From positions 1-64,000 of the forward strand of contig JAEPON010000014.1 of NCBI GenBank assembly GCA_017642895.1: 64,000 nucleotides of DNA, in the 5' to 3' direction. The first letter of the stretch is position 1. The number at the start of each line of letters is the position of its first letter. Of this stretch, positions 34,048-50,615 are shown in pieces. This stretch comes from Roseitalea sp. GTDB taxonomy: Bacteria; Pseudomonadota; Alphaproteobacteria; Rhizobiales; Rhizobiaceae. The position numbers and the translations under genes are program-made. Under the pieces are notes generated by a model. It saw nothing but the letters and a program-made list of their open reading frames with translations, searched no databases and was not told the DNA's origin.

Positions 34048-34146
34048 TCTTCCCAAGAACGCGCCGACCAGGCCGGCCGCTTTCCCGGAACCGACCTGGT
34101 CCCGGCGCCGTCGCACGAACGTCTGCGACCGGGCCGTTTGTCCACA

Positions 34147-34172
34147 CGCGTACCATCGCTTGCCGGTACGCG
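34147..34172. promoter_or_regulatory. Inverted repeat upstream of the second LLM gene
   Basis: CGCGTACC (34147-34154) and GGTACGCG (34165-34172) are perfect 8-base arms around ten bases, within the 202-base gap between the AraC gene and the monooxygenase. It could be an operator or a terminator without a T tract. AraC proteins usually bind direct repeats, so the owner is uncertain. No clear promoter hexamers were found in the gap. Confidence 0.4.
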
Positions 34173-34249
34173 CACACGCGGCGTTTTCGACTTCCACCGG
34201 CGCTGGCGCCCCGGCAAAGATCGGCCGACCAAAACGAAGGGAGGACATC

Positions 34250-35506
34250 GTGAAAGTCAATTACTTCCAGCTCGTTCCCTATCGCGCCTTTCCGGCGGAC
34301 TTCGAGCAGAACCACGGCGCGGCGGTGACGACGCCATATGATCTCGCCGATCCGTCCGAGATCCGCGCCAGCTATGCAGATGCGCTGGGCCAGTTCATGC
34401 ACGCTGCGCGCGCCGGCTTTGACGGGCTTGCCGTCACCGAGCACGGCCAGAGCGCTTATGACATGGTGCCCAATCCGTCTTTGATCTGCGCCGCGCTCGC
34501 CCATGCCACCGAAGCCGAGGGGCTGTCGCCGGCCATCTTTCCGCTCGGCCGCTCGCTGGGCAAGAGCCGTGAGCCGCTGCGTGTCGCCGAGGAGATGGCG
34601 ATGATCGATTGCATTTCCGGCGGGCGCCTGATTGCCGGCTTCCCGGTCGGTCTTGCCTATGATTCAAGCATGAACAACGGTGTACCGCCGGCCCAGGTGC
34701 GCGCGCGGTTCGACGAAAATCTCGAACTGATCCTGCGCGCATGGTCCGAGCCGGGCATCTTCCCCTGGAACGGCCGCTTCTCGCAGCATGCCACGGTCAA
34801 CATCTGGCCGCGCCCCCTGCAGACGCCGCCACCGGTCTGGATCACCGGCATCGGCAACCCCAACACAATGCGCTTCGTGCTGGAGCGCGCCTTCGGCTTC
34901 AACTATTTCAGTTGGTTCGGCACCAAGGTGACAGGGCACCGCATCTTCGACCGCTTCTATGAGATCGCCGACCAACTCGGCAAGACGCCCAACCCCTATC
35001 AGATGGGGTTCATGCAGACGATCGCCGTCGCCGAAACCGACGAAAAGGCCGAGCGCCTGTTTGCCGATCACGCCGAATATTTCTTCCGCAAGGCACTGGG
35101 CGCGATACCGATGAACCAATTGGCCCTGCCGGGCGGCATCGATATTCGCGGCCTGGAATTCATCATGCGCGATCCGAAGGATTTCGGCATTTACGAGAAG
35201 ATGCGCACGATCAGCTTCACCGAACTGGTCGAATCCGGCGCGCTGATCTGCGGCAGCCCGGCAACGGTGCGCGATCGGCTCAAGCAGACGCTTGGCGAAC
35301 TCAGGATCGGCAATCTGCACGCCATGCTGCAATTCGGCTCCATGCCGCGCGAGCTGGCCGAAGCCAACATCGATCTGTTCGCGACCGAGGTCATACCGAC
35401 GCTCAAGACATTGTGGGCCGATGAGCATGATCACCATTGGTGGCCGCAATCGCTGGGCGGATCGCCCCGCGTTGACAGCGCCCCGCAACTCAAGGAGGCC
35501 GTGTGA
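34250..35506 (+). CDS. LLM-class flavin-dependent monooxygenase (second copy)
   Basis: Luciferase-like enzyme of 418 residues. Core blocks are VAEEMAMIDCISGGRLIAGFPVGL, ATVNIWPRPLQTPPPVWITGIGNPNTM and GALICGSPATVRDRL. The GTG start has GGGAGG upstream; the frame is open into the AraC gene, but only out of that gene's frame. It is followed with a stop-start overlap by an alpha/beta hydrolase and then by a flavin reductase, so all components of a two-component monooxygenase plus product hydrolase are together. Related in architecture to the enzyme at 13097 but clearly divergent. Confidence 0.9.
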   Translation: MKVNYFQLVPYRAFPADFEQNHGAAVTTPYDLADPSEIRASYADALGQFMHAARAGFDGLAVTEHGQSAYDMVPNPSLICAALAHATEAEGLSPAIFPLGRSLGKSREPLRVAEEMAMIDCISGGRLIAGFPVGLAYDSSMNNGVPPAQVRARFDENLELILRAWSEPGIFPWNGRFSQHATVNIWPRPLQTPPPVWITGIGNPNTMRFVLERAFGFNYFSWFGTKVTGHRIFDRFYEIADQLGKTPNPYQMGFMQTIAVAETDEKAERLFADHAEYFFRKALGAIPMNQLALPGGIDIRGLEFIMRDPKDFGIYEKMRTISFTELVESGALICGSPATVRDRLKQTLGELRIGNLHAMLQFGSMPRELAEANIDLFATEVIPTLKTLWADEHDHHWWPQSLGGSPRVDSAPQLKEAV

Positions 35507-36336
35507 TGTTTTTCCCTGACCATGTGCGCACCGAGACCGTTTCCGTCTGGAACGGAAAGATCGATATCGTTTTCCGTGTCGCCGGCGACGGCCCGACCCT
35601 TGTCTATCTGCATCCCGCCGCCGGGTTGATGTGGACACCGTTTCTGGACGCGCTCGCCCGGCACCACACCGTCGTCGCTCCGCATTTTCCGGGCACGGCG
35701 CCCGACGATCCGCATGCGATCCACAGAATAGACGAACTGGGTGATCTGGTGCTGATCTACGAAGAGGCATTGCGGGCGATGAACTGTCATGACGCCGCGG
35801 TGATCGGTGAGAGCTTCGGCGGCATGCTGGCGTCCGAACTCGCAGCCACGTTTCCCGATCTCTTCAGCCAGGTGGCTCTGCTCGCGCCGGTCGGCCTGTG
35901 GCGCGAGGACCTGCCGGTGGCCAACTGGATCGCCGCCGCCAAGGAGGAGATGCCGGCGATGCTTTTCGCCGACCCGTCGGGTCCTGCGGCACAGGCCATG
36001 TTCACCCCGCCGGACGACCCCGAAATGGCGGTCAAGGGGATGGCCGGATTGGTTTGGTCGATCGGATGCACGGGCAAGTTCCTGTGGCCAATTCCCGAAA
36101 AGGGCCTCGCCAAGCGCCTTCATCGGGTCACGGCACCGGTGCTGATCATCTGGGGCGCCGAGGACCGGCTGATCCCGGCCGCCTATGCGGAGATTTTCGC
36201 AAACCATCTTGCCAAGGCACAGGTGGTGATCGTGCCGAACGCCGGCCATGTTCTGCCGGCCGAGGCGGGCGAAGCGGTGCTCGGCCATCTGACCGGTTTC
36301 CTCGCACCGCCCGAACACGCCCGTGGCGCCGCCTGA
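35506..36336 (+). CDS. Alpha/beta hydrolase
   Basis: Alpha/beta hydrolase of about 276 residues. The nucleophile elbow is VIGESFGGML (Ser103), the acid is in IIWGAEDRLIP, and the His in PNAGHVLPAEAG. ATG 35506 shares a base with the monooxygenase stop and has AAGGAGG eight bases upstream, so translation is coupled. The likely job is to hydrolyse the ester or lactone formed by the monooxygenase, but C-C bond hydrolases of the same fold are an alternative. Confidence 0.87.
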   Translation: MFFPDHVRTETVSVWNGKIDIVFRVAGDGPTLVYLHPAAGLMWTPFLDALARHHTVVAPHFPGTAPDDPHAIHRIDELGDLVLIYEEALRAMNCHDAAVIGESFGGMLASELAATFPDLFSQVALLAPVGLWREDLPVANWIAAAKEEMPAMLFADPSGPAAQAMFTPPDDPEMAVKGMAGLVWSIGCTGKFLWPIPEKGLAKRLHRVTAPVLIIWGAEDRLIPAAYAEIFANHLAKAQVVIVPNAGHVLPAEAGEAVLGHLTGFLAPPEHARGAA

Positions 36337-36389
36337 CCCCTCAGGCGCCGCCCGTGGCGAACCGGTGTCCAAGACAGGATGTCAAAAAA

Positions 36390-36941
36390 ATGAAGCAGAC
36401 CACGACAACCGACATGCCGTCGCGCGAATTGCGCAACGCGCTTGGCCTCTACACGACCGGAGTAGCGGTCGTTACCTGCGCGGGTCCGGGCGGCCATCGC
36501 TGCGGCGTGACCGTCAACTCGTTTGCGTCGGTGTCGCTGGACCCGCCGCTGGTGCTGTGGAGCCTGCAGCGCTCGTCACCCAGCCTTGAGACCTTCGAGC
36601 AGGCGGGACATTTCGCCGTGAACGTGCTGGCGCAGGATCAGCAGGACGTGTCGGACCGGTTCGCCCGTCCCGCCATCGACAAGTTCGACGGGCTGGTCTG
36701 TAGCGGCGGCCTGAACGGCGTTCCCTTGCTGCCGGCCTGCCTGGCCCGGTTCGAGTGCCGTACCGAAGCGTGTCACGAGGGCGGCGACCATGTGATTTTT
36801 GTCGGCCGCGTTCTGCGGTGGACGGCGACGCCCGGGGCGCCTCTGGTGTTCCACGGCGGGCGATACGACCGGCTGGTGGGTCATCGCGCAGCGCTCGATC
36901 GGTCGGCGAAGGCAACCGCGTGCGCGGCCTGTGCGGCGTGA
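36390..36941 (+). CDS. Flavin reductase (flavin reductase-like domain protein)
   Basis: Small flavin reductase of 183 residues in the HpaC/DIM6/NTAB family. It shows YTTGVAVVTC, CGVTVNSFASVSLDPPLVLWSL (flavin-binding core) and HFAVNVLAQDQ. It would supply reduced FMN or FAD to the LLM monooxygenase two genes upstream. The C-terminal tail after GHRAALDR is unusually rich in Ala and Cys, and the IS3 remnant starts soon after, so the end may have been altered. The start is ATG 36390; there is no strong Shine-Dalgarno sequence. Confidence 0.86.
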   Translation: MKQTTTTDMPSRELRNALGLYTTGVAVVTCAGPGGHRCGVTVNSFASVSLDPPLVLWSLQRSSPSLETFEQAGHFAVNVLAQDQQDVSDRFARPAIDKFDGLVCSGGLNGVPLLPACLARFECRTEACHEGGDHVIFVGRVLRWTATPGAPLVFHGGRYDRLVGHRAALDRSAKATACAACAA

Positions 36942-37310: not shown

Positions 37311-37437
37311 TGATCGGCGTTCGCCTTCCGTCAGGCGGCGGCCGGCCAAATTCCCCGGCCGAAATTGCCAGTGGCTTGATAAATGCCGCGACTCATAGGA
37401 ACTGTCGTCATGAGTGACCGCGAAGGACACATTATGC

Positions 37438-38613
37438 ATGGCGCAAGTTGGCCGAACCATCCTCGATGAGATGATCGCGTTGCGGCGCGATCTGCATGCT
37501 CATCCCGAACTGGGTTTTGAAGAGTTTCGAACCTCATCAATCATTGCCGAAGCGCTGGCGGCTGAAGGGATAGCGGTCACGACAGGCATTGGTCGCACGG
37601 GCGTCGTAGGAACCTTGAAACGCGGGGCTTCGGGCCGTGCCATCATGTTGCGCGCAGACATGGATGCGCTGGCCATGCCCGAGACCGCCGAAGATCGGCC
37701 GTGGCGTTCGACGCAAAGCGGCAAGATGCATGCCTGCGGTCACGACGGCCATACCGCGATGCTGCTGGGGGCCGCGCAGCATTTGTCCAGAAACGGCCGC
37801 TTCAATGGCACGGCGCATTTTGTGTTTCAGCCGGCAGAGGAAGGACGCGGCGGCGCACAGGCTATGGTAGACGACGGCTTTTTTGCCCGCTTCCCTGTCG
37901 ATCGCGCCTTCGGTCTGCACAACATGCCGGGTCTTGCCGTCGATGAGATGGCAGTGGTCAACGGCCCGCAGCTTGCGTCTTCCGATCGGTTCCAGGTGAC
38001 GTTTTGCGGCAAAGGCACGCACGGTGCCAAACCCCATCTTGGCCGCGACCCGGTTGCGGCCGCCGGCCAGTTCCTGGCCGCAGTGCACACGATTGTGGCA
38101 CGGGAGCTTGATCCCCTCGAGCCAGGTGTCGTCAGCATCTGCGCGATGGAGGCGGGCGATTTCGCCGCCCTCAACGTGATCCCGGACTCGGCCAGGCTTG
38201 GTGGCACGGCCCGCGCCTATTCAACCTCCGCACGCGACAAGATTGAAGCATCGCTTCAACGTCTGGGTGAAGGGATTGCGGCATCCATGGGCATGACATC
38301 GGCCTTCGAATACCGGCGCGGCATGCCATCGGTGACCAACGATCCTGCTGCCACCCTTGGCGCCTATCAGGCAGCCGTCTCAGCGCTGGGCGATCACAAA
38401 GTGCGCGCTGAATTCCCACCTTCAACAGCCGGCGATGATTTCGCGATCTTCTCCGAGCAAGTGCCAAGTTGCTACGCCTGGCTCGGCAACGGTCCTGCCG
38501 GGGCCGATGCAATGCACCACAACACGAAATATGATTTCAATGACGGTGCGATGGCGACCGGCATCGCTTTTTGGACCACTCTCGTCGAGCGTGAGCTGCC
38601 GGTTGGATCCTAG
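37438..38613 (+). CDS. M20 family amidohydrolase (hippurate-hydrolase-like)
   Basis: Metal-dependent M20/M40 aminoacylase-type hydrolase of about 391 residues. ADMDALAMPE and HACGHDGHTAMLLGAA supply metal ligands, FQPAEEGRGGAQAMVDDG the catalytic Glu pair, and MHHNTKYDFND the C-terminal His block typical of N-acyl-amino-acid hydrolases. ATG 37438 has AAGGA upstream; a GTG at 37414 is also in frame. It may cleave an acyl amide, consistent with the nitrogen-compound theme of the next genes. Convergent with the nucleoside hydrolase. Confidence 0.87.
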   Translation: MAQVGRTILDEMIALRRDLHAHPELGFEEFRTSSIIAEALAAEGIAVTTGIGRTGVVGTLKRGASGRAIMLRADMDALAMPETAEDRPWRSTQSGKMHACGHDGHTAMLLGAAQHLSRNGRFNGTAHFVFQPAEEGRGGAQAMVDDGFFARFPVDRAFGLHNMPGLAVDEMAVVNGPQLASSDRFQVTFCGKGTHGAKPHLGRDPVAAAGQFLAAVHTIVARELDPLEPGVVSICAMEAGDFAALNVIPDSARLGGTARAYSTSARDKIEASLQRLGEGIAASMGMTSAFEYRRGMPSVTNDPAATLGAYQAAVSALGDHKVRAEFPPSTAGDDFAIFSEQVPSCYAWLGNGPAGADAMHHNTKYDFNDGAMATGIAFWTTLVERELPVGS

Positions 38614-38626
38614 GGACTGTTGAGTA

Positions 38627-39568
38627 TCAACGTCCCTGGTCGCGGTCTGGTTGGTTGCGGCTTCCCACAAGTACGTTCGACAATTGGGCCAGGGCCAGGC
38701 CCTCATCAACGCCCATGGCGACATCGACCGCATGTGTGCCGCTGACCAGAGCGCCGCTATCGCCGCCCGTCAGGCAGACGTCCAAATGGCGGCGCTCGAC
38801 CTTGAAGAGCTGCGGTACCGCGGCCAAGAGCATTACGCACGGATCGTGCAGGGGGCGGCTTTCCCTGCCGTCGGTGCCTTTGAAGTAAGCCTTGATCAGT
38901 TCACCGGCCTTCCGGGCCTCCGGCCGCGCGGCAGTCGCCAATTGGGTGGCATAGTCATGCGTGGCGCGCACCTGGCGTGTCACATCGAGCGGGACGATGG
39001 CGAGGGGCAGATCGGCCCCGAGCACCGTCTCCACGGCCTCCGGATCGGCAGCGAAGTTGAACTCCGACCGCGCGCTGACATTGCCATGGGTCTCCACCGC
39101 ACCGCCCATCGCGATGAGGCGCCGAATGCGCACCGCCTGCGACGGGTGGCGCTCGACAAGCGTCGCGACATTGGTCAGCGGCCCCAGCGCAAGCAGATCG
39201 ACAGTCTTGTCCGGAGCGTTTGCCAACTGTTCCGCCATCCAGTCAACGGCGCCGTCAAGCGCGGGGGCGGCCGCCTGGGGCAGTGGCACGCCCCCGACGC
39301 CATCGACACCATGAATGTGAGAGGCAACATCGAGCGCGGGCCGCTTCAAGGGCCTGCTGGCGCCCGCCACTACAGGAATGTCAGTCCGCCTGGCCAGCGC
39401 CAGCAATCGGCCGGCATTGCGTGTCGTGGCAGCGAGGCCGATATTGCCGGCGACTGTCGTCAGCCCGAGAACTTCAAATGCCGGCGACCGCAAAGCGTAG
39501 AGAATGGCGATTGCATCATCGAGCCCCGGATCGGTGTCGATAATGGCCTGAACCGATGCTTCTTGCAT
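38627..39568 (-). CDS. Inosine-uridine-type nucleoside hydrolase
   Basis: Nucleoside hydrolase of 313 residues that cleaves the N-glycosidic bond of ribonucleosides to base plus ribose. The signature IIDTDPGLDDAIAI (Ca2+ site) opens the protein; LALGPLTNVA, the MGG...NFAADPEA block and LHDPCVMLLA follow in family order. It is divergent to the adenine-deaminase-type gene at 39653, suggesting a base-release then deamination sequence. The substrate base cannot be fixed. Confidence 0.9.
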   Translation of the reverse strand: MQEASVQAIIDTDPGLDDAIAILYALRSPAFEVLGLTTVAGNIGLAATTRNAGRLLALARRTDIPVVAGASRPLKRPALDVASHIHGVDGVGGVPLPQAAAPALDGAVDWMAEQLANAPDKTVDLLALGPLTNVATLVERHPSQAVRIRRLIAMGGAVETHGNVSARSEFNFAADPEAVETVLGADLPLAIVPLDVTRQVRATHDYATQLATAARPEARKAGELIKAYFKGTDGRESRPLHDPCVMLLAAVPQLFKVERRHLDVCLTGGDSGALVSGTHAVDVAMGVDEGLALAQLSNVLVGSRNQPDRDQGR

Positions 39569-39652
39569 GATGTTTTCTTGCTCACCTCCGCCTATTGTTG
39601 GGCGGTCTTATTGTTCTGATTCCGCAATCCTGCAACCCGACGACGACGCATC

Positions 39653-41533
39653 ATGCACGATGAAAGCCCCCCTTCGCTGCCCGCCGATCTTACGCCCTCC
39701 GCCGTCGATGAGGGCACAATCCGCCGTGATCTTGTGCAGGTCGCGCTTGGCCGAAAGCCGGCTGACCGGGTGGTTCGAGTCGGGCGCCTGTTCGATGCGG
39801 CGAGCCGCACATGGCTTGAGGACCAAGAGGTGGTGGTCCGCGGCCGCCGGATCGCCTTTGTCGGGCCCGCGGGCCATTGGCAAGGTGGAGCCAGAGACCG
39901 GATCGAACGGCTCGATCTTGCTGCCGTGCCCGGTTTTGGCGAGGTGCACAAGCATATCGAGAGTTCCCACCTGACGCCTGAGCACGAGGCGGCGCTGGTT
40001 CTGCCGCGCGGCAACACATGGACATGCGAGGCAAGTCATGAATTCTCAAACGTCAACGGGGCCAAGAACCTTGGCTTCTGGCTGACGGCGCGACGTGCCG
40101 GATGCGCGCTCAAAGTGTTTCCATTGCCCGGCTCGGCTGTTCCACCCACCGGATATGAAGTGTCCGGCGGCCATTTTGACGCCGGGGATCAGGCTCGGTT
40201 TCTGGCTTCCAGCCTACAAGTTGCCGGGCTTGACGAGGTGATGGACTGGCCCGCCGTCACCAATGCTGACAATCGGTCCCATCGGCGCTTGTGGGGGATG
40301 ATCGAAGCCACTTTTGCCGCGCGCGGCGTCATTGAAGGCCATGGCGCAGGCTTGCGTGCGCTTGGCGACATCAATGCCTTTGCCGCCGCCGGCCTGGCCT
40401 CCGACCACGAGGCGTGGACCGCCGAGGAGGCCTGGGACAAGCTCACTCATGGCGTGTTTCTGGAGATCCGGCCGCACTCGATGCCGGAGATCATCGGTGG
40501 ATTGCTCGAGCGCGGCCTCAAGGACTGGAGCCAAGTGGCGTTTGCAACCGACGACAGGTCCGCGTCCGACACCCTGCAAATGGGTGCGACCGACCACAAT
40601 GTGCGGCTCGCCATACAAAGCGGGCTGTCGCCTGAAGTTGCCTTGCAATGCGTGACGATCAATCCGGCGCGGCACATGCGCCTGACGCCCTGGGTGGGTG
40701 CCATTGCGCCGGGGCGTTACGCCGATCTGGTGTTGCTGAACGATGTCGAGCGCATTGCGATCGCGGAAGTCTGGGCGGATGGGCGGCAGGTATCGGCCGG
40801 CACAAGCTACATCGATGCGGTGCAAGACATCGCCTGGCCCGACTGGGCAACGCAGACAGTCAAGCTCAACCGCACTTTCAAGGCTGACGATTTCGCCATC
40901 CCGGCCCCAGCCGGGCGGAAGACCGTACAGGCGGCGCTGCTGCGGCCCTTCCATTGGGACGATGACTTTATCGAGACCGAGCTGACCGTTGCCGGCGGCC
41001 AGGTGGAGCGGGATACCGCCCGCAACATCACGAAGTTCGCCGTGGTCGACCGACATACGGGCGAGAGCCGCGTGGGGCGCATGTTCTGGCTCGGCTGCGG
41101 GCCGGCGACGCCCGATACGGCCGTCGGCTGCACCGTCGCCCATGACAGCCACAACCTTTGGGTCGTTGGATCTTCCGATGCGGCGATGGCGCAAGTGGTC
41201 AATGCCATCCACGAGATGCAGGGCGGCTGGGTGCTAGCGAGCGGCGGCATCATCAAAGCGCGTGTGCGCTACGAAGTCGGCGGTCTGATGACGGCGCGCT
41301 CGGCGCAGGAACTCGATGCGGACATGAAGCACCTCCATGCGGAAGCCGAGAAGATCGACTGGCTCTATGAGCCAACCTTTTCGCCCCGCTGGTTCCCGGG
41401 GTTTCCGGAGCGGTTGCAGTTCGCGACGCTCACCTGCGCGCCTTGGCGATGGGTGCTGGTCGCACCCAATGAGGCAGCGCCGGAAGGCTTGGTCAACGTC
41501 ATGACCGGCGAGAGCCATCGCGTGGTTTGGTGA
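39653..41533 (+). CDS. ade: Adenine deaminase family amidohydrolase
   Basis: Amidohydrolase-superfamily enzyme of 626 residues with the Ade architecture: short N-terminal beta part, TIM barrel and long C-terminal domain. PGFGEVHKHIESSHLTPEHE carries the metal His99 and His101; GVIEGHGAGLRA, FATDDRSASDTLQMGATDHNVRLAI and VTINPARHMRL are family blocks. In adenine deaminases the first motif is DxHVHIESS, so the EVHK variant is worth noting. It probably deaminates adenine or a related aminopurine. Divergent to the nucleoside hydrolase. Confidence 0.85.
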   Translation: MHDESPPSLPADLTPSAVDEGTIRRDLVQVALGRKPADRVVRVGRLFDAASRTWLEDQEVVVRGRRIAFVGPAGHWQGGARDRIERLDLAAVPGFGEVHKHIESSHLTPEHEAALVLPRGNTWTCEASHEFSNVNGAKNLGFWLTARRAGCALKVFPLPGSAVPPTGYEVSGGHFDAGDQARFLASSLQVAGLDEVMDWPAVTNADNRSHRRLWGMIEATFAARGVIEGHGAGLRALGDINAFAAAGLASDHEAWTAEEAWDKLTHGVFLEIRPHSMPEIIGGLLERGLKDWSQVAFATDDRSASDTLQMGATDHNVRLAIQSGLSPEVALQCVTINPARHMRLTPWVGAIAPGRYADLVLLNDVERIAIAEVWADGRQVSAGTSYIDAVQDIAWPDWATQTVKLNRTFKADDFAIPAPAGRKTVQAALLRPFHWDDDFIETELTVAGGQVERDTARNITKFAVVDRHTGESRVGRMFWLGCGPATPDTAVGCTVAHDSHNLWVVGSSDAAMAQVVNAIHEMQGGWVLASGGIIKARVRYEVGGLMTARSAQELDADMKHLHAEAEKIDWLYEPTFSPRWFPGFPERLQFATLTCAPWRWVLVAPNEAAPEGLVNVMTGESHRVVW

Positions 41534-41536
41534 CCC

Positions 41537-42928
41537 TCAGCCGGCAGCCAGCCTGTCGAGGATGCGCAGCCAACTGCGGATGCCCTTGTGATAGCTCGTC
41601 AGGTCATACTTCTCATTCGGGCTGTGAACGCGATTGTCAAAGCGCGCAAAACCGACAAGCAGCGCGTCCATGCCCAGCTGTTGCTTGAACGCCGTCAGGA
41701 TCGGGATGGAGCCGCCCGTGCCGGCGCAGGCGGCTTCGGTCTCCCACTCCTCGCTCAACGCTTCGAGGGTTTTGCGCAGCATTTCACCGTCATGCGGCAG
41801 CACGGTCGCGGCGCTAGTGCCATGCTCGGCAAAAGCGATCGCGCAATCTTGCGGCAAACGTGCGTGCAAATGCGCGCGGAATGCCGCGCGAACCTTGTTG
41901 GGGTCTTGTCTGTCAACGAGCCGGAGGGAAACCTTGGCCCGCGCACTGGACGGGATGACGGTCTTGAACCCATCGCCCGAAAAGCCCCCAGCAATGCCGT
42001 GAATCTCAAAGGATGGGCGCGCCCAAACCTGCTCCAAAACGGACCGGTTGGCTTCGCCCGCGGGTTGGGACAAGCCCACGCCACCCAGAAACGCCGATTG
42101 GTCGAAGGGCAGGCGCGCCCACTGCGCGCGCACTGCCTCGGGCAGTTCGGCGACATCGTCGTAAAAGCCGTCAATGGCAATCGAGCCGTCGGGCGTGCGC
42201 AGGCTGGCCAACAGATCCGCCAGGACCTGCAGAGGGTTCCGGGCGGCATTGCCGAAAATGCCGGAATGCAAGTCACGGTCGGCGGCGGTGATCGTGATTT
42301 CCTCGCCGACGAGCCCGCGCATCACCGTCGTGACAGCAGGTGTCTGCCGATCCCACATGTCCGTGTCGCAGACGAGCACCATGTCCGCTTGCAGCTCATT
42401 GCGTGTCTTGGCAAGGAACGGCTCAAGGCTGGGCGAGGCGATTTCCTCTTCGCCCTCGAACAGCATCGAGACCTTGAGCGGCAGCGCGCCGTTCGCCGCC
42501 TTCCAAGCCCGGCAGGCCTCCACGAAGGTCAGAAGCTGACCTTTGTCATCGGATGCGCCGCGCCCGGTGATCCACGTCTCCCCGTCAGGCTGCAGGACAA
42601 GTGCCGGCTCGAAGGGCGGGCGCTCCCATGCCTCCAGCGGATCGACCGGCTGCACGTCATAGTGGCCGTAAAACAAGACGTGCGGTACGCCCTTTGGAGC
42701 GCCACGGTCATGGGCAACGACCATGGGATGGAGTTCTGTCGAGCGCACGCTTGCGTCAAACCCCAGCCCATCGAGCTCGTCCTTCAGCCACTGTGCCGCA
42801 CGCCGGCAGTCCTCGGCGTGGGTCGGGTCGGTGGAGATCGATGGAATCCTGATGAGTGCCATCAACCGTTCAAGGCTCGCATCCAACTGTTCATCGGCAA
42901 CGGCCAACGCCTTTTTGAGCGCTGTCAT
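41537..42928 (-). CDS. M20 family dipeptidase
   Basis: Zinc-dependent M20 peptidase of 463 residues, CNDP/succinyl-diaminopimelate desuccinylase-like. YGHYDVQPVD, GRGASDDKGQ, LFEGEEEIASPSLEPF and VCDTDMW are the metal and catalytic blocks in order; GGSIPI and the late HSPNEKYDLTSYHKGI are also family-typical. It starts with a four-base overlap on the upstream amidohydrolase, at the end of the ABC importer operon. It probably hydrolyses an imported peptide-like or N-acyl compound. Confidence 0.9.
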   Translation of the reverse strand: MTALKKALAVADEQLDASLERLMALIRIPSISTDPTHAEDCRRAAQWLKDELDGLGFDASVRSTELHPMVVAHDRGAPKGVPHVLFYGHYDVQPVDPLEAWERPPFEPALVLQPDGETWITGRGASDDKGQLLTFVEACRAWKAANGALPLKVSMLFEGEEEIASPSLEPFLAKTRNELQADMVLVCDTDMWDRQTPAVTTVMRGLVGEEITITAADRDLHSGIFGNAARNPLQVLADLLASLRTPDGSIAIDGFYDDVAELPEAVRAQWARLPFDQSAFLGGVGLSQPAGEANRSVLEQVWARPSFEIHGIAGGFSGDGFKTVIPSSARAKVSLRLVDRQDPNKVRAAFRAHLHARLPQDCAIAFAEHGTSAATVLPHDGEMLRKTLEALSEEWETEAACAGTGGSIPILTAFKQQLGMDALLVGFARFDNRVHSPNEKYDLTSYHKGIRSWLRILDRLAAG

Positions 42929-44250
42929 GACGTGCCTCCGTCGATGCGGGCCATCTCGGCTTTGAATTCGGTGGCGATCTGTCCGGCATCGCGCAGCACT
43001 TTTCTGCGCTCCAATGTGAGAACGTCGCGGTCGCGCATGAGCCAGCGACCCGCGACCATCACGTCGGTGACATCCTCCGGCTGCGCTGCAAAAACCAGCG
43101 TCGCATAGGGATCATAAACGGGCTGAAGGCGCGGTGTGTCGAGCGCGATGCGGATGATGTCGGCCTGCTTGCCCGGTTCGAGCGAACCGACCCGCAGGTC
43201 CATACCCAGCACGCGCGCGCCCTCGATGGTCGCCATGCGAATGATGTCGACAGCGGGCATCGGCTTGCGGCTGCCGCCGAGCAGTTTGGCGAACATCGAA
43301 ACCGGTCCGAACTGGGCGAAGAGATCGAGCGTGTTGCCGCTCATCGGCCCGTCGGTGGCGATACCCACCGGAATACCGGCGGCACGCATCGCGGCGACCG
43401 GGGCAATGCCACGCCCCGCCTTGGCGTTGGAGCGGGCGTTATGCGCGACCCGGACGCCGGCTTCCGCCAGGCGCCCGATCTCAGCCTCGTCAAGGTGCAG
43501 GCAGTGGGCGGCAATCAGACCGTCGATGAGAAGCTCTGCCCGATCCACCACTTCGACGGGTCGGCAGCCATGGGTGCGTTCGGCCCACGCCATCTCCGAT
43601 CCCATTTCGGCGAGATGGATCTGCACCGGCACCGCCGGGTGGTCCGTTGCCCATTGCGCGACCCGCTTCATAACCGCGATGTCGGTTGAATAGGGTGCAT
43701 GGGGGGCAATCGATGGCGTGATGCGCGGATGGTCGGCAAATGCGCCGACCAGCAGTTCGGTGAGCGCAAAGCCCTCGTCGATGCTGGCGTGATCGGGCGG
43801 ATCAAAGTCCGCGATGGTCTGGCCGACGACACCACGCAGCCCGGCCTCATCAAGGACATGACCCACTTCGGTCTCGTGATAATACATGTCCGCGACAGTG
43901 GTTACGCCCGCGCGGATCAGTTCCCAGCAGGCCAGCGCCGTGCCAACACGCACCATGCGCGGCGAGACGAACTTGCGCTCCATCGGCAGCACATAGCGGA
44001 ACAACCGGTCGTCCACATCCTCGCCGAGCCCCCGAAACAGCGTCATCGGCAGATGGGCGTGCGGGTTGACCATGCCCGGCATCACGATGTCGCCTTCGAC
44101 ATCCGTGATGTCGGCATCGATACTGCCCGGCCCCGGACCCGCGCCGGCCGAAACGATCCTGTCATCTTCGATCAGCACATGGCCGGCTTCGATCACCGGC
44201 ATGTCCGGTGTACAGGGCAGCAGCAGAGCGTTGCGGATGAGCGTTTTCAT
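42925..44250 (-). CDS. TRZ/ATZ/SAH-deaminase-type amidohydrolase
   Basis: Metal-dependent amidohydrolase of about 441 residues. MPGMVNPHAHLPMTLFRG gives the HxH motif, VQIHLAEMGSEM and AAHCLHLDE further metal His, and GIATDGPMSGNTLDLF the catalytic Asp. The family includes adenosylhomocysteine/methylthioadenosine deaminase, guanine deaminase and triazine hydrolases. Start MKTLIRNALL overlaps the ABC ATPase stop by four bases. Together with the nucleoside hydrolase and adenine deaminase it suggests purine-like chemistry. Confidence 0.87.
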   Translation of the reverse strand: MKTLIRNALLLPCTPDMPVIEAGHVLIEDDRIVSAGAGPGPGSIDADITDVEGDIVMPGMVNPHAHLPMTLFRGLGEDVDDRLFRYVLPMERKFVSPRMVRVGTALACWELIRAGVTTVADMYYHETEVGHVLDEAGLRGVVGQTIADFDPPDHASIDEGFALTELLVGAFADHPRITPSIAPHAPYSTDIAVMKRVAQWATDHPAVPVQIHLAEMGSEMAWAERTHGCRPVEVVDRAELLIDGLIAAHCLHLDEAEIGRLAEAGVRVAHNARSNAKAGRGIAPVAAMRAAGIPVGIATDGPMSGNTLDLFAQFGPVSMFAKLLGGSRKPMPAVDIIRMATIEGARVLGMDLRVGSLEPGKQADIIRIALDTPRLQPVYDPYATLVFAAQPEDVTDVMVAGRWLMRDRDVLTLERRKVLRDAGQIATEFKAEMARIDGGTS

Positions 44251-45317
44251 GGCGCCTCTTCCGCCGGCAGGATGCAACATTGCTCGAGCTCCGGAACAAG
44301 TCGCGCCGTGGCTCCAATGTCCAATGGCCGAGACAATGGCCCCGCCGCGACAAGATGGCCGGCGGGCGTTTCGGCCTGATAGTGATAGGCGCGGCCCAGA
44401 TAGGTGCGCAGGCCCAGCGTCGACGGGATCCCCTCGGCGTCGGCGTCGGGGCTGACACGCAGCCCGTCCGGGCGCGTCGCCAGCGTGAAGCGGTCGGGCA
44501 CCGCACCGAGTTGCTCCTGGTCAAGCACGACCGAGATACCACCATCGCCCTTGGCGTGCACGATCGACCCTTGCCGGGTCGCCGATGTGAGCGGGATCAG
44601 GTTTTCGAAGCCGACAAAGCGCGCAACGAAGGCGTTCGACGGACGCTGGTAGAGCACTTCCGGCGTATCGAACTGGCGGATACGCCCGGCATCCATGATG
44701 GCGACACGGTCGGAGATCGAAAACGCCTCTTCCTGATCGTGGGTGACGAACACCGAGGTCGTGCCGTTGGCGCGCTGCAACTGGCGAATTTCAACGCGCA
44801 TATCGACACGCAACTTCGCATCGAGGTTCGAAAGCGGCTCGTCAAACATCAAGAGCTGCGGTTCAATGACCAGCGCGCGGGCGAGCGCGACTCGCTGGCG
44901 CTGGCCGCCCGACAGTTCGCCCGGCAGGCGCTCGGCCAGATCGGCGAGACCGACGCGCTGCAACATGTCGTCAGCCTTTCGCGTCCGCTCCGCGCTGCCC
45001 ATGCCGCGCTGTTTGAGCCCGAACGCGACGTTGTCGAGCACGCTCAAATGCGGAAACAACGCATAGTTCTGGAACACCAGTCCGATGTTGCGGCGATGCG
45101 CCGGCAGGCGGGTCAGGTCGGTATCGCCGAGGCGGATCGCACCGGCTGTCGGCGCCAGAAAGCCAGCGGTCAGTCGCAAAGTCGTCGTCTTGCCGCAACC
45201 CGAGGCGCCAAGCAGTGACACCAGTTCGCCGGCGCCGACATCGAGCGAGAGGTCGTCGAGCACCTTGGTGGTGCCGTAGTGAGCGGTGAGATGTTCAAGA
45301 GAAAGAGGGGCGGCCAT
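44247..45317 (-). CDS. potA: ABC transporter ATPase (spermidine/putrescine type)
   Basis: PotA-like ATPase of 356 residues. Walker A is LLGASGCGKTTTLR, the signature LSGGQRQRVALARAL, Walker B LLMFDEPLSNLDA, and a C-terminal TOBE-type domain follows. It powers the PotB/PotC-like permeases encoded upstream on the same strand. Related ATPases serve iron, thiamine and phosphonate importers, so the symbol denotes family type, not proven polyamine transport. Confidence 0.85.
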   Translation of the reverse strand: MAAPLSLEHLTAHYGTTKVLDDLSLDVGAGELVSLLGASGCGKTTTLRLTAGFLAPTAGAIRLGDTDLTRLPAHRRNIGLVFQNYALFPHLSVLDNVAFGLKQRGMGSAERTRKADDMLQRVGLADLAERLPGELSGGQRQRVALARALVIEPQLLMFDEPLSNLDAKLRVDMRVEIRQLQRANGTTSVFVTHDQEEAFSISDRVAIMDAGRIRQFDTPEVLYQRPSNAFVARFVGFENLIPLTSATRQGSIVHAKGDGGISVVLDQEQLGAVPDRFTLATRPDGLRVSPDADAEGIPSTLGLRTYLGRAYHYQAETPAGHLVAAGPLSRPLDIGATARLVPELEQCCILPAEEAP

Positions 45318-45330
45318 GTCGATCCGGGAG

Positions 45331-46119
45331 CTATTTGGTCAGGAAGGTCAGGCCGAGCGTGCGCTCGACGACAGCCATGACGGCGACGGTAAGAAACATC
45401 AAGAGCACGGAGACCGATGCGATCACGGGATCAAAGAACTGCTCGACATGTGCGAGGATCTGGATCGGAAGCGTGGAAATTCCCGGCCCTGTGAGAAACA
45501 GGGCCACCGACACATCGTTGATCGAGGTGATGAAGGCCAGGATGAACGCGGCGATAACGCCCGACCGGACGTTCGGCAGAACCACGGTGAAGAACGTCTT
45601 CCAGGGCGGCGAACCGAGGCTGATCGCGGCCTCTTCAATGGAAAAGTCAAACGACGCCAGGCTGGCCGAGATAACGCGCACGCAATAGGGCAGGACCAGA
45701 AGCGTGTGGCCGATCAGCAGCGTCGAGAAGACCGGGAGACCAGCGCCGACCTGCACAGAACGCAAAAGCGAAAAGCCCAGCACGATCTCAGGCACCAGGA
45801 TCGGCAGAACGAACAGTGTCGATAGCCAGCCGGGCAGTTGAACGCGATAACGGTTGAGCGCATAGGCGGCGGGAATGCCGATGATCAGCGCGAAGCAGGT
45901 TGCCAGCGTTGCGACCTGAAAGCTGGTCACCATCGTACGGCGGAACGCGGCCATCTCAAAGATCCGCTCGAACCAGCGCAGCGACAGTCCCTGCGGCGGG
46001 AAGGTCAGAAACGTCGTGTCCGACAGGGAGGAGCCAATCACGATAATCAGCGGGCCCATCAGGAAGATGTAGACAAGAACGGCAAACGCGATAAGGCCGG
46101 GGTGAAGTCTGCCGGTCAT
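45331..46119 (-). CDS. potC: ABC transporter permease (PotC type)
   Basis: Permease of 262 residues with about six transmembrane helices. The EAA loop DFSIEEAAISLGSPPWKTFFTVVLPNVRSGVIAAFILAF contacts the ATPase. It overlaps the PotB-type gene by four bases and precedes the ATPase gene by 13. Second membrane half of the importer. Confidence 0.87.
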   Translation of the reverse strand: MTGRLHPGLIAFAVLVYIFLMGPLIIVIGSSLSDTTFLTFPPQGLSLRWFERIFEMAAFRRTMVTSFQVATLATCFALIIGIPAAYALNRYRVQLPGWLSTLFVLPILVPEIVLGFSLLRSVQVGAGLPVFSTLLIGHTLLVLPYCVRVISASLASFDFSIEEAAISLGSPPWKTFFTVVLPNVRSGVIAAFILAFITSINDVSVALFLTGPGISTLPIQILAHVEQFFDPVIASVSVLLMFLTVAVMAVVERTLGLTFLTK

Positions 46120-46943
46120 GTCGACATCGGATTGAGGCGTTTGGCGATGCGGGTCATGCCAAGAACGACGGCAAGGGTGACGACGACCATGATCGCCGCG
46201 ATCGTCGAAGCGCTGTCCCAGTCAAAGGCCACCATGGCCTGTTGATGCAAAAAGGTGCCCATGACCATGACGCTTTCGCCGCCGACCAGTTGCGGTGTGG
46301 CGTAGGCGGTGAAAGAGCCGGTGAAGACGAGAACAGCGCCGACGATCAGGCCCGGTACGGCCAGTGGGAAAATCACCTGCCGAAAGGTTTGAAATGGACT
46401 CGCACCAAGCGATGATGATGCCTGGATCAAATCGTCGGGAATGTTCTCGAGCACGCCGACCAGCGTCAGTATCATCAACGGCACGAACAGATAGACCATG
46501 GCGATGATCACGGCGCCTTGGGTGTAGAGCATCGGGAATGGTGCGCCCTCGACGCCCAACCAGACGAGCGCATTGTTGACCATGCCGTTGCGGCCCAAAA
46601 GGATCAGAAACGCAAAAGAGCGAACAACGACGCCTGTCAGAAGCGGAAACACAGCAGCGATAATCAGAACCGAACGCCAGCGCGCAGGCGCGCGCGAGAC
46701 GACATAGGCGGTCAGAAAACCGATCAGCAGCGAAAAAACGGTCGTTAGCAGAGCGATCTCGAGCGTCCGCCAAAGCACGGTGCGTCGAAAGCCACTGCCG
46801 AGAAAGGCCAGGTAGGAGCCCAAGGGGCCCGCATCCGTTGTAAAGGTCGCCCCGATTGTCGCGCCGACAGGCACAATCAGGCAGAGGACGACCAACGCCG
46901 TTGCGGGCGCCGACATCACCCAACCCATGAAGCGTTTGAGCAC
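46116..46943 (-). CDS. potB: ABC transporter permease (PotB type)
   Basis: Permease of 275 residues. The EAA-type loop IPDDLIQASSSLGASPFQTFRQVIFPLAVPGLIVGAVLVF and repeated hydrophobic helices place it as the PotB partner of the next gene. It begins at a GTG with AGGGGA upstream. A hairpin separates it from the binding-protein gene, which would favour higher binding-protein expression. Confidence 0.87.
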   Translation of the reverse strand: MLKRFMGWVMSAPATALVVLCLIVPVGATIGATFTTDAGPLGSYLAFLGSGFRRTVLWRTLEIALLTTVFSLLIGFLTAYVVSRAPARWRSVLIIAAVFPLLTGVVVRSFAFLILLGRNGMVNNALVWLGVEGAPFPMLYTQGAVIIAMVYLFVPLMILTLVGVLENIPDDLIQASSSLGASPFQTFRQVIFPLAVPGLIVGAVLVFTGSFTAYATPQLVGGESVMVMGTFLHQQAMVAFDWDSASTIAAIMVVVTLAVVLGMTRIAKRLNPMST

Positions 46944-46978
46944 CGGTTCCGGTCCCCTTGCTGGCCGCTGAATGCGTT

Positions 46979-47008
46979 GGCGCCCGGCCTTCTGGAAAGC
47001 CGGACGCC
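46979..47008 (-). other. Intercistronic hairpin between binding protein and permease genes
   Basis: GGCGCCCGGC (46979-46988) and GCCGGACGCC (46999-47008) pair with one mismatch across ten bases. It starts eight bases after the binding-protein stop. No T tract. Such stems typically stabilise the binding-protein message. Confidence 0.55.
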
Positions 47009-47015
47009 GGTTCGC

Positions 47016-48050
47016 TTATCCGCCGAACAATTCGTTCCAGCGGTTGATCCAGTCGACCTTGGCGGTGTTCATGCGCTCATAGTCGACACGCTTGAGGCTG
47101 CCCAGCATCTCTTCGCCATAGGTCCATTGCGCCGCCGCCTCCGGCGAGAGTTCGACTGCCGCATGGACCGGCGCATCGACACCGTTTTCCGCCAGCACCT
47201 TCTGCCGCTCTGGGTCGAGCACGAAATTGATGAACTCGTGCGCCAGCTCGACATTTTCCGCACCGGTCGGAATGTTGAGCGTGTTCAGCGTGGCGATGTC
47301 ACCATCGTCCAGATCCGCCCATACGATGGTCGGCACCGCATCTTGAAGCCGCCCCAACGCAAAATCCTGCGCCAGCGACACGGTTATCTCACCGGTCGAG
47401 AACAAATTGATCATCTCCGAGCCGGTGTTATAGTTTTTCAGGATATTGCCTCTGATCGCTTCAAGCTCTCCAAATGCCGGGTTGGCGTCCTCAAACGCAT
47501 CGGTGCCTGCCTTGTCGCCCGCGATCATGACGACCATGGGGCCGGCGGTCGTCGTGATACCCGGCAGCGAAACCGAACTGGCCAGATCTTCGCGCCACAG
47601 ATCCGACCACTGACTGATTGGCGGCTCCACTTTGGCGCTGTCGTAGACGATGCCGACACGACCGATCGTGTAGGCCGGACCATATTCGCCCTGCGGGGCC
47701 TGTGCCATCTCATGCAGACCGTCAATATTGGGCACTTTCGAGCGGTCAATGGGTTGGAACAGACCCTCTTCGATGCCCTGCTGTGAGAAGCTGTCGGTGA
47801 GGTAAATGACGTCGACCCCTTTGCCGCCGCGGATTTTGATCTTGTTCAGACGATCGGCATTGTTGCCCGTTTCGAAGACCAGTTCGCAGCTACATTGCTC
47901 CTGAAACGGCTGGACGATGAACTCGTCCAGTTTTTCGCCGTTGAAACCCCACCAGGAAACCGTCAGCGTCTCTGCCTGAGCACTGAGCGGCGATCCGACA
48001 AACGCCAAGGCAACTGCGCCAGCCAGCGCACACGTTTTCCGCAAAACCAT
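47016..48050 (-). CDS. potD: ABC transporter substrate-binding protein (PotD type)
   Basis: Periplasmic binding protein of about 344 residues. The chosen ATG has AAGGA eight bases upstream and yields a clean Sec signal, MVLRKTCALAGAVALAFVG, with cleavage after SAQA. The frame is open nine codons further upstream. The mature part starts ETLTVSWWGFNGEKLDEFI, typical of the spermidine/putrescine-binding fold. GVDVIYLTDSF and PYTIGRVGIVYDS-like AYTIGRVGIVYDSAK follow. The ligand is unknown; the coupled hydrolases suggest a nitrogen-rich compound rather than a polyamine. Confidence 0.85.
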   Translation of the reverse strand: MVLRKTCALAGAVALAFVGSPLSAQAETLTVSWWGFNGEKLDEFIVQPFQEQCSCELVFETGNNADRLNKIKIRGGKGVDVIYLTDSFSQQGIEEGLFQPIDRSKVPNIDGLHEMAQAPQGEYGPAYTIGRVGIVYDSAKVEPPISQWSDLWREDLASSVSLPGITTTAGPMVVMIAGDKAGTDAFEDANPAFGELEAIRGNILKNYNTGSEMINLFSTGEITVSLAQDFALGRLQDAVPTIVWADLDDGDIATLNTLNIPTGAENVELAHEFINFVLDPERQKVLAENGVDAPVHAAVELSPEAAAQWTYGEEMLGSLKRVDYERMNTAKVDWINRWNELFGG

Positions 48051-48122
48051 AAGCATAATCCTTGATTTGGACATCACCGCATAGCGCCCGTGAGGAACTG
48101 ACCGAGCCGGCGAAAGGGACGA

Positions 48123-48546: not shown

Positions 48547-49674
48547 TCATGTGTCCATGAGCGCCGAAAGCACCATGTCCTCGTCGATGACGATGCCCAG
48601 CCCCGGCCCGTCCGGCAGGTGGACATCACCGTTTGTGTGCCAGATCGGCCGATCCACAAGATCCTTTTGGGCCGGGCCGTAGACGGGCTGCAATTCCAGC
48701 AGCGCGCATGCCTTGCAGGCAAAGCTCAGAGCCTGGCTGGCGGCGCCGACGATCGCGGTCGAAAAATTGTGCGCATTGGCCTGCCGGCGCGACAGGGCGC
48801 AGATCTCGGCCGCCTTGCGAAAGCCCGTGATGCCCTCGACGCGGCCCGGATCAAGGCCGACAACGTCAACCGTTCCGCTGTCGACGATCCGCTTGACACC
48901 ATCGGCGTTCCACTCGCGCTCGCCATAGGCGATCCGGATGCCGGTGGCCGCGCGAAGGGCAGCGTATCCCTTCGGATCGTCGTGACCGAGTGGCTCCTCA
49001 AGCCAGGCAACACCGCGCTCCTCGAACGCCTTCGCCCGGCGGATTGCGGTCGGCACGTCCCAGACGTTCCTGACGCCCAGATCGACCATCAGATCCTTGC
49101 CGGGCCCCATTGCGGCCATCACCGCGTCAACGAATTCGAGATCGCGCGCTTCATCGAAGCCGAGTCTTGCATCACCGGCCTTGCCGAAGCCGACCTTGGC
49201 GCCGTGCAGTCCCGTTTGGGTATGGCCGGCGATTTCGTCGGCCATTGCGCCAATATCGGCCTTTGTGCCGTGCAGACTGGCAATCGCCGGCAACCGGTCG
49301 CGCACCGGGCCGCCCAGGAGATCAAGGACCGATGCGTTCAGCCGCTTTCCTTTCAGGTCCCACAGGGCGATGTCGATGGCGGAAATGGCGATCGATGCGA
49401 TACCCGCGCCGGTTCCGTACCACCAGCTGTGTTCCTTCAGCTTCAGCCAGATGCGTTCGATGTGGAGCGGGCTCTCACCGACAACCAGCGGCGCAAACCC
49501 CTCGATGAGCTTTTGGGCGGCGCGCGTCGCTTCGGGGAAATAAGCGCATCCCTCGCCCCAGCCAAAAGCGCCGTCGCTGTCGGTGATCTTGACCAGGCAG
49601 ACGGAACGGAAACGGTTGTGGTCCGTCGGCTCTCGATACGAAACGGGGAACGCTTCGACCTTCGCAATCTTCAT
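48547..49674 (-). CDS. Enolase-superfamily sugar-acid dehydratase (mandelate racemase type)
   Basis: Enzyme of 375 residues. Lys160 (GAKVGFGK), metal ligands Asp198 (MVDLG), Glu226 (WLEEPL) and Glu252 (YGERE), and His302 (NAHNFSTAIVG) are in the mandelate-racemase-subgroup order used by aldonate dehydratases such as rhamnonate, galactonate and lyxonate dehydratase. It would dehydrate an aldonate to a 2-keto-3-deoxy acid. It is downstream of the SDR on the same strand, and the FAH-family hydrolase and rhamnose-type importer are divergent. Confidence 0.85.
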   Translation of the reverse strand: MKIAKVEAFPVSYREPTDHNRFRSVCLVKITDSDGAFGWGEGCAYFPEATRAAQKLIEGFAPLVVGESPLHIERIWLKLKEHSWWYGTGAGIASIAISAIDIALWDLKGKRLNASVLDLLGGPVRDRLPAIASLHGTKADIGAMADEIAGHTQTGLHGAKVGFGKAGDARLGFDEARDLEFVDAVMAAMGPGKDLMVDLGVRNVWDVPTAIRRAKAFEERGVAWLEEPLGHDDPKGYAALRAATGIRIAYGEREWNADGVKRIVDSGTVDVVGLDPGRVEGITGFRKAAEICALSRRQANAHNFSTAIVGAASQALSFACKACALLELQPVYGPAQKDLVDRPIWHTNGDVHLPDGPGLGIVIDEDMVLSALMDT

Positions 49675-49704
49675 CGTCTGCTCTCCGGCGCCATCAATGC
49701 CCGA

Positions 49705-50469
49705 TCAACCGTTCATCATCGCCCGAAAAAAGTCATCACGCACATCGAGCAAGACATCATCGAGCGCGCGCGCATCGGGTCCACACAACCATGCCATGAC
49801 GCTGGCGGGAACCTCGGGCCTGACGAGATCGGCCTTCGTGATCCGGCTGATCGGATTGAGCCCGGCGGTACGGATTTCCAACTGCATGGTGGTGTCGGTC
49901 GGCGGGATCCCGCAAAAGAAGAACTGGACGCCCTTCCCTTCAAGGTCCTTGGCAAACATGAGCGTCAACATGCGCGCCGCCGCCTTCGAACTGCAATAGG
50001 CGGCCCAACCTTCCATGGGTGTGGTGGCCGCCCCTGTCCCGGCATTGACGACGACGCCCCTTGCGGCAATCAGCATCGGCAGGGCAGCGCATGTCATGCG
50101 ATGCAGACCCAGCGTGTTCACCTCAAAGGCCGGCCGCAGGGACTCGGTGGCCAGCGCATCGACATGGCCGATCGGCGCAATCACGCCGGCATTGTTGACC
50201 AGTGCGTCAAGCGCGCCGGATTCGGTCCTTATGCGCGTCAGCGTGGTCGCAATGGCCGCCGGGTCGGTGACGTCCAGATCGATGATGGTGCATTTGCGCA
50301 AGCGTTCCCGGTCTTCGGGCGTGGCGGCGCCGACCACGCCGGCATAGACCCGCGCGCCCTTTTCGGCGAGCAGCCCGGCAAGCGCGGCACCAATGCCGCG
50401 CCCGGCACCCGTCACAAGCACGGTTCTGCCGGAAAGGTCGGGAACGGCGATCGGAGACAGGTCGAACAT
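49705..50469 (-). CDS. SDR family oxidoreductase
   Basis: Short-chain dehydrogenase of 254 residues with VLVTGAGRGIGAALAGLLAEKG, VNNAGVIAPIG and catalytic YCSSKAAA. In non-phosphorylative fucose/rhamnose routes an SDR oxidises the 2-keto-3-deoxy acid to a 2,4-diketo acid before an FAH-family hydrolase splits it; this gene and the one at 52376 fit those steps. The first gene of the minus-strand pair; its start lies 33 bases from the operator at 50502. Confidence 0.87.
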   Translation of the reverse strand: MFDLSPIAVPDLSGRTVLVTGAGRGIGAALAGLLAEKGARVYAGVVGAATPEDRERLRKCTIIDLDVTDPAAIATTLTRIRTESGALDALVNNAGVIAPIGHVDALATESLRPAFEVNTLGLHRMTCAALPMLIAARGVVVNAGTGAATTPMEGWAAYCSSKAAARMLTLMFAKDLEGKGVQFFFCGIPPTDTTMQLEIRTAGLNPISRITKADLVRPEVPASVMAWLCGPDARALDDVLLDVRDDFFRAMMNG

Positions 50470-50501
50470 TTTTGTTGATTTCCTCTCGCGTCATGTCAAA
50501 A

Positions 50502-50522
50502 TGGTCAGACCAATTAATTGGT
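50502..50522. promoter_or_regulatory. Candidate GntR/FadR-type operators in the divergent region
   Basis: TGGTCAGACCA (50502-50512) is a perfect palindrome of the TGGTC/GACCA type bound by FCD-domain GntR regulators. Overlapping it, ACCAATTAATTGGT (50509-50522) is a second perfect 14-base palindrome. Both lie between the SDR and the decarboxylase-family gene. A minus-strand TTGACA (complement of 50541-50546) with TACCAA 17 bases on would place the second palindrome on the -10. The GntR gene at 57969 is the natural candidate regulator. Confidence 0.65.
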
Positions 50523-50615
50523 AAAGTGACCTTGAAAGCTTGTCAAAGGCTTTCACGGTCGGATTTGGGAGATGGCGCAGCCGGGTTGAGCGCGCCAAGC
50601 CGGGAGGCATCAAGC

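Follow-up and report, generated by a model that had tools for sequence, protein, structure and literature searches.

The 64,000-nucleotide stretch analysed here, positions 1 to 64,000 of contig JAEPON010000014.1 of the soil bacterium Roseitalea sp. (the window), contains at 37438-48056 the operon of an ABC importer, which adjoins genes for a nucleoside hydrolase (NH), a variant of the adenine deaminase (Ade) family, which we call ADEv, and further hydrolases. The locus probably encodes a system for the uptake and breakdown of a purine nucleoside or base. The chances that the imported purine is substituted at its N6 amino nitrogen seem to us about even, and the more specific proposal that the substrate is the tRNA-derived nucleoside N6-threonylcarbamoyladenosine (t6A) or its cyclic form ct6A, which is drawn by analogy, is a tentative one. 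To our knowledge, the recycling of hypermodified nucleosides from degraded RNA by bacteria is largely open, and the cluster names concrete candidate enzymes for it. In addition, the labels "polyamine transporter" and "adenine deaminase" in public records would be corrected.

The protein families of the window were assigned with Pfam and NCBIfam, which confirmed all those named in the first-pass annotation, i.e., an operon in which importer genes are joined by those of a deaminase and an M20 peptidase, and next to it genes for a nucleoside hydrolase, an Ade-type enzyme and an M20 amidohydrolase. On the minus strand, the operon consists, in this order, of the substrate-binding protein (SBP, 47016-48056, alternative GTG start at 48077; SBP_bac_6/8, a PotD fold with a pocket that is not PotD-like), a PotB-type permease (46116-46943) and a PotC-type permease (45331-46119; both BPD_transp_1), a PotA-type ATPase (44247-45317; ABC_tran and TOBE_2), a TRZ/ATZ-type aminohydrolase (TRZ, 42925-44250; Amidohydro_1, 195 bits), and an M20 peptidase of the dipeptidase/carnosinase type (M20p, 41537-42928; NCBIfam PRK09104, 743 bits, above the cut-off). 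The 4-base overlaps that had been claimed are present between potA and TRZ (44247-44250) and between TRZ and M20p (42925-42928), and another one joins potB and potC (46116-46119). Three genes had been said to face the operon. This applies to the two plus-strand genes, ADEv (39653-41533; Adenine_deam_C, 101 bits; signature EVHKHIES / CEASHE) and an M20D amidohydrolase of the aminoacylase type (37438-38613, alternative GTG start at 37414; NCBIfam TIGR01891, 337 bits, above the cut-off), but not to NH (38627-39568; IU_nuc_hydro, 256 bits with a cut-off of 34), which lies on the importer strand and is divergent from ADEv.

The association of these genes is beyond chance, because genes of the set are found again close to ADEv in other genomes and because SBP and ADEv co-occur even where they are unlinked, in four genomes. 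Three aligned ADEv proteins served as the query for a scan of named genomes, which yielded 362 confirmed relatives, of which the best 80 were kept, a sample that is biased toward window-like genes. Two relatives (G018, G023), 10 of 17 plasmid records, and 37 places outside the window from 397 genomes of the order, present as 36 stretches, were added. This resulted in 132 ADEv genes (the one of the window plus 81, 2, 10, and 38), in which some genomes and one gene occur twice, and in a non-redundant set of 65 loci after removal of copies with at least 90% identity. In the relatives, a codon score was used to call genes, BLAST comparison with reference proteins provided their names, and neighbours were counted within 10 kb of ADEv, as far as each stretch extends. 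The neighbours of the 132 genes and of the 65 loci, respectively, are SBP (86 and 34), NH (54 and 37), TRZ (47 and 35), M20D (28 and 17), PnrA/Bmp-type importers (27 and 19), creatininase (25 and 16), phosphoribosyltransferase (PRTase; 24 and 16), M20p (22 and 12), carbamoylase (12 and 7), NCS2 permease (9 and 4), a pyridoxal phosphate (PLP) enzyme (6 and 5), and guanine deaminase (5 and 5), one of which, at L098, scores above the family cut-off. The M20 genes hold their place in the operon across several genera. For PRTase of the relatives, no match was found in the window's own genome in a search with one query protein at E 1e-5 and without a positive control.

At thresholds of E 1e-60 for SBP and E 1e-150 for ADEv, 17 of the 397 genomes of the order contain SBP, 32 contain ADEv, and 16 contain both (Fisher 7e-19, kinship ignored). 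At the level of genera, all nine with SBP are among the 13 with ADEv, out of 142 (1.4e-11). The lone genome with SBP and without an ADEv match, G761, is an 89% complete assembly, in which the contig ends about 470 bases past the SBP match. In four genomes (G645, G720, G771, G617) the SBP operon is located on another contig than ADEv or more than 300 kb away from it, and 19-kb stretches around these unlinked operons contain TRZ in all four cases, NH in three, and M20D and PRTase in two each.

An importer is encoded near ADEv at 56 of the 65 loci, with SBP at 34, a PnrA/Bmp-type importer at 19 and an NCS2 permease at 4 (assigned by the Pfam families Bmp and Xan_ur_permease); SBP and Bmp occur together solely at L146. 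Thus, 22 of the 31 loci without SBP have one of the two other types, and nine have none of the three, among them L127, which contains potA, potB, and potC and where SBP lies just beyond the stretch. PnrA/Bmp proteins are nucleoside-binding, and NCS2 permeases transport nucleobases. The three importer types are nearly exclusive at ADEv; what they would most simply have in common is a nucleoside or a nucleobase. The first-pass annotation had proposed the import and breakdown of an acylated or modified purine nucleoside. A joint system is in agreement with the results, and so is its nucleoside or nucleobase character, because NH, PRTase, guanine deaminase, PnrA/Bmp, and NCS2 are neighbours; that the base is acylated or otherwise modified is plausible, yet unproven, so that the interpretation as a whole is partly supported. 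It had also been stated that no described pathway with this gene set was known, and none appeared among the papers listed in a literature search. Neighbours of other kinds are present in single cases, i.e., a nucleoside 2-deoxyribosyltransferase gene immediately after ADEv (L141, 10869-11438) and a PfkB kinase beside ADEv (L130). At L091 (8-2621), a PfkB kinase and an ADP-ribosylglycohydrolase (Pfam), together with a gene that resembles creatininase by eye, precede a Bmp importer and ADEv.

The motif EVHKHIES, which had been noted as an Ade variant motif, comprises residues 97-104 of ADEv (39941-39964), retains the HxH metal ligands, and marks a distinct branch. In a tree, all 20 chosen ADEv rows were split from all 21 other Ade-family rows by a branch with 100/100 support, and ADEv did not fall among the other Ade-family rows of the relatives, with the caveat that the L021 row is a very long branch. 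HKH and ASHE are present in 20/20 ADEv rows and 0/21 others, which have HMH, HLH or HIH and DPHE or DSHE instead. In comparison to the Ade of L021, at least three residues are missing directly after R273 of ADEv, and there is an extra C-terminal stretch. Judged from these alignments, EVHKHIES is the signature of a separate Ade-family clade that has changed close to the base pocket, because of the tree split, the two motifs, and the loop and C-terminal differences. ADEv is about 28-36% identical to Ade genes of the relatives. The window's genome contains a second Ade-family gene (34% identical to ADEv), and at L021, L115, and L154 a second one lies beside ADEv or within the importer operon. Those at L115 (465-2270, 601 aa) and L154 (15505-17304, 599 aa) are of the DSHE type. 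At L079 (7351-11881), two ADEv copies flank a creatininase-family gene, with an NCS2 permease upstream.

ADEv shares the amidohydrolase fold, the Adenine_deam_C domain, and the metal ligands with adenine deaminases such as Atu4426 (3NQB), but differs from them by HKH/ASHE, the gap after the arginine, the C-terminal insertion, and its separate clade. It matches 3NQB with 181 bits, and 3NQB is also the top Foldseek match of the ADEv model (26% identity over the alignment), a model without ligand and with a moderate pLDDT of 76.5 and low stretches near the active-site motifs. The six metal ligands of the Ade type (H, H, E, H, H, D) are present, and H99, H101, E195, H230, H252, and D300/D301 are invariant across 35 ADEv rows; these positions were mapped via 3NQB from the YerA ligands given in the available text of PMC12133300. 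The NCBIfam model TIGR01178 gave 294.5 bits for ADEv, with a cut-off of 472.5. This cut-off was discarded as a test for canonical Ade, because it does not discriminate: the Ade of L021, which is Atu4426-like by motif and served as a control, also stays below it (363 bits). Two members of the Ade family, YerA and Bh0637, deaminate N6-methyladenine and not adenine, as far as the available text reports (PMC12133300), while E. coli AdeC is described in the accessible part of another source as inactive on N6-methyladenine (PMC13296781). The former two, which are likened to ADEv here by family, exemplify deamination of N6-substituted adenine in it (available text of PMC12133300).

The closest solved chain of TRZ is the methylthioadenosine/S-adenosylhomocysteine (MTA/SAH) deaminase 4F0R (241 bits), and the cut-offs of the curated equivalogs are not reached (350 of 540 bits for PRK09045, the highest-scoring one; 212 of 779 for the model of the MTA/SAH deaminase). 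For NH the best NCBIfam model is RihC (204 of 382 bits), and RihC, RihA, and UriH all stay under their cut-offs. The closest solved relatives are Sso-CP2, DUG1, and cytosolic non-specific dipeptidase for M20p, and YxeP and the indole-3-acetic acid-amino acid hydrolase for M20D. A comparable case are the N2,N2-dimethylguanine hydrolases, which are related to AtzB and act on a modified purine base; they are likened here by description, and their substrate differs from the one proposed here (available text of PMC13054789).

The importer resembles PotABCD importers and 4EDP of Clostridium perfringens in fold, gene order, and the families of the permeases and the ATPase, but the polyamine contacts of PotABCD are replaced in its SBP. 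The closest solved relative of SBP is 4EDP (259 bits), followed by PotD-type chains with 66-71 bits. The SBP model (pLDDT 88.7, again without ligand) also has 4EDP as its top Foldseek match, and in these alignments its identity is 39% with 4EDP and 22% with PotD 1POT. A literature search for 4EDP listed no paper with this name. The polyamine contacts of PotD, which we take to be D168, E171, W229, W255, and D257, are aligned with I167, T170, Q230, T256, and N258, which are kept in 26, 26, 26, 23, and 26 of 26 SBP rows, respectively. Measured against this list, the SBP sequence lacks the PotD contacts. The NCBIfam equivalog cut-offs are also missed by all four components (PotD 64 of 582 bits, PotA 317 of 482, PotB 149 of 348, PotC 131 of 326), and the PotB-type permease stays under the curated cut-offs of both the PotB and the PotH models. 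C55 and C57 of SBP are invariant in the 26 rows and might form a disulphide.

The following course of breakdown is proposed. The Pot-like importer would bring the compound into the cell, NH would remove the ribose, and TRZ may, as its family suggests, deaminate the nucleoside or the base. ADEv would cut the C6-N bond by the two-metal chemistry of adenine deaminases, which would yield hypoxanthine and an amine or a carbamoyl side chain. The M20 enzymes, or carbamoylases in some sister operons, would hydrolyse the attached or released N-acyl or N-carbamoyl amino acid, and in the relatives PRTase may salvage the base. A substituent at N6 is considered because of M20D and the M20 peptidase of the window and the carbamoylases in a minority of the sister operons. 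The nucleoside t6A bears an N6-carbamoyl-threonine. If it were the substrate, the importer would take up the nucleoside, NH would free the base, and ADEv would produce hypoxanthine and N-carbamoyl-threonine, or its hydantoin. The last step would be left to an M20 enzyme, or to the D-type and M20C-type carbamoylases of sister operons with the PLP enzyme, a relative of D-threonine aldolase and D-threo-3-hydroxyaspartate dehydratase; in the window itself it would fall to M20D and M20p. According to the available text of PMC13244150, ct6A has a hydantoin form that occurs naturally and is converted to t6A by ring opening. If true, the t6A proposal would give one branch of D-carbamoylases a native role.

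The clue to the side chain comes from the carbon-nitrogen hydrolases of the D-carbamoylase kind near the 12 ADEv genes mentioned above. The one of L105 matches 1FO6, an Agrobacterium enzyme, with 391 bits. At L105, L108, L109, L146, and L150 it is followed by a gene annotated as alanine racemase; that of L105 is closest to D-threo-3-hydroxyaspartate dehydratase (179 bits) and also matches D-threonine aldolase (118 bits), and that of L146 is under every NCBIfam cut-off. The gene after ADEv at L131 and L133 encodes an M20C-type enzyme, which a family scan of L133 places in the allantoate amidohydrolase subfamily (610 bits). Carbamoylases at least 76% identical to that of L105 occur in six of the 397 genomes, every one with ADEv. 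Those that come next in identity (67-68%; G467, G749, G751) belong to genomes without ADEv, where they are encoded within importer operons (L156, 2566-12198; L157, 3219-10026; L158, 3009-11466). The L156 operon, with its Pot-like importer and related D-carbamoylase (68% identity), resembles some ADEv loci, but it contains a D-hydantoinase/dihydropyrimidinase gene after the carbamoylase (568 bits, above the cut-off; a similar gene is seen by eye at L158), and ADEv was not found in that genome. The annotated tables of the five loci with the "alanine racemase" list no hydantoinase beside ADEv and the carbamoylase. By analogy, we infer that ADEv may hold the operon place of an enzyme that supplies N-carbamoyl amino acids. 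A hydantoinase lead beside ADEv at L025 was dropped, the scanned gene being a caprolactamase alpha gene (NCBIfam, 1242 bits, above the cut-off).

Several observations weigh against an N6-substituted purine as the substrate, or against a purine altogether. The closest solved chains of NH are cytidine/uridine-specific and RihA enzymes, i.e., of the pyrimidine type. A cluster of cytidine-deaminase-like genes within 3.5 kb of ADEv has six members among the 65 loci, of which the copy at L122 reaches 152.6 bits with a cut-off of 153, and L126 contains a cytosine deaminase above its cut-off (594 bits). ADEv could be active on plain adenine, although the window's genome has the second Ade-family gene mentioned above. 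Operons with a carbamoylase are a minority, and the presence of the wider carbamoylase family is not tied to that of ADEv (13 of 110 genomes, p 0.10); moreover, genes for M20 peptidases and for carbamoylases commonly serve nitrogen scavenging. M20D or M20p never occurs together with a carbamoylase near the 132 ADEv genes, and this exclusion is weak evidence (Fisher 0.04 in the 65 loci, from few independent lineages). It holds for M20D and M20p; a general exclusion of M20 enzymes and carbamoylases fails, as the M20C-type enzyme lies beside a carbamoylase at L131 and L133. An exclusion of NH and carbamoylase (0/65) turned out to be false, since both are present at L131, L133, L134, and L138 and the zero was due to the choice of copies retained. 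Finally, ADEv is rare outside the order in the sample covered: a class-wide search at E 1e-150 found it in one of 385 genomes, the window's own; the scan of named genomes also found it in Paracoccaceae.

Four other explanations have to be weighed. Ordinary scavenging of adenosine and adenine, with ADEv acting on adenine, TRZ on adenosine or MTA, NH on nucleosides, and the M20 enzymes as passengers, is possible, if not what we expect. Ade, NH, guanine deaminase, and PRTase all belong to the standard families of purine salvage, and the metal site of ADEv is conserved, but ADEv is sharply set apart as a clade in which changes near the base pocket are fixed, the window's genome and three of the loci have a second Ade-family gene, and the M20 genes retain their operon place in several genera. 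A ureide or hydantoin route, in which ADEv would be a cyclic-amide hydrolase that yields an N-carbamoyl compound, so that purine- or pyrimidine-derived rings or hydantoins and not N6 side chains are broken down, appears rather unlikely. ADEv is closest to adenine deaminase in both sequence and fold and has the deaminase metal site, and NH and nucleoside-type importers recur. In favour of this route are the D-carbamoylase and the allantoate amidohydrolase-like M20C enzyme adjoining ADEv, the related carbamoylase beside a D-hydantoinase at L156, where ADEv is absent, the creatininase-family neighbours at 16 of the 65 loci, and the pyrimidine-type neighbours.

The breakdown of cytokinins, i.e., N6-isopentenyl or zeatin nucleosides, by plant-associated bacteria would fit the N6 chemistry and the presence of ADEv in Rhizobium, Microvirga, and Agrobacterium. 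However, it would leave the amino-acid amide and carbamoyl hydrolases unexplained, and ADEv occurs in Gemmobacter, Devosia, and Qingshengfaniella as well, so that we regard it as very unlikely. Even less probable is a polyamine importer with unrelated adjoining genes that are there by chance. It has the family resemblance to PotABCD in its favour, under the curated cut-offs, and polyamine import was rejected on the grounds of the five replaced PotD contacts and of the co-occurrence of SBP with ADEv. Uptake and breakdown of a purine nucleoside or base, with a substituent at N6 as the leading possibility, is preferred over these explanations.

Two further gene groups flank the locus. At 48547-52357, the window contains genes for a mandelate racemase/enolase-type dehydratase, a short-chain dehydrogenase/reductase, an acetoacetate decarboxylase-like protein, and a 2-hydroxyacid dehydrogenase, which are not among the listed recurrent neighbour clusters of ADEv. 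At 33250-36941, an AraC-type regulator, a monooxygenase of the LLM (luciferase-like monooxygenase) class, an alpha/beta hydrolase, and a flavin reductase are encoded in one direction and represent a separate flavin-monooxygenase gene group.

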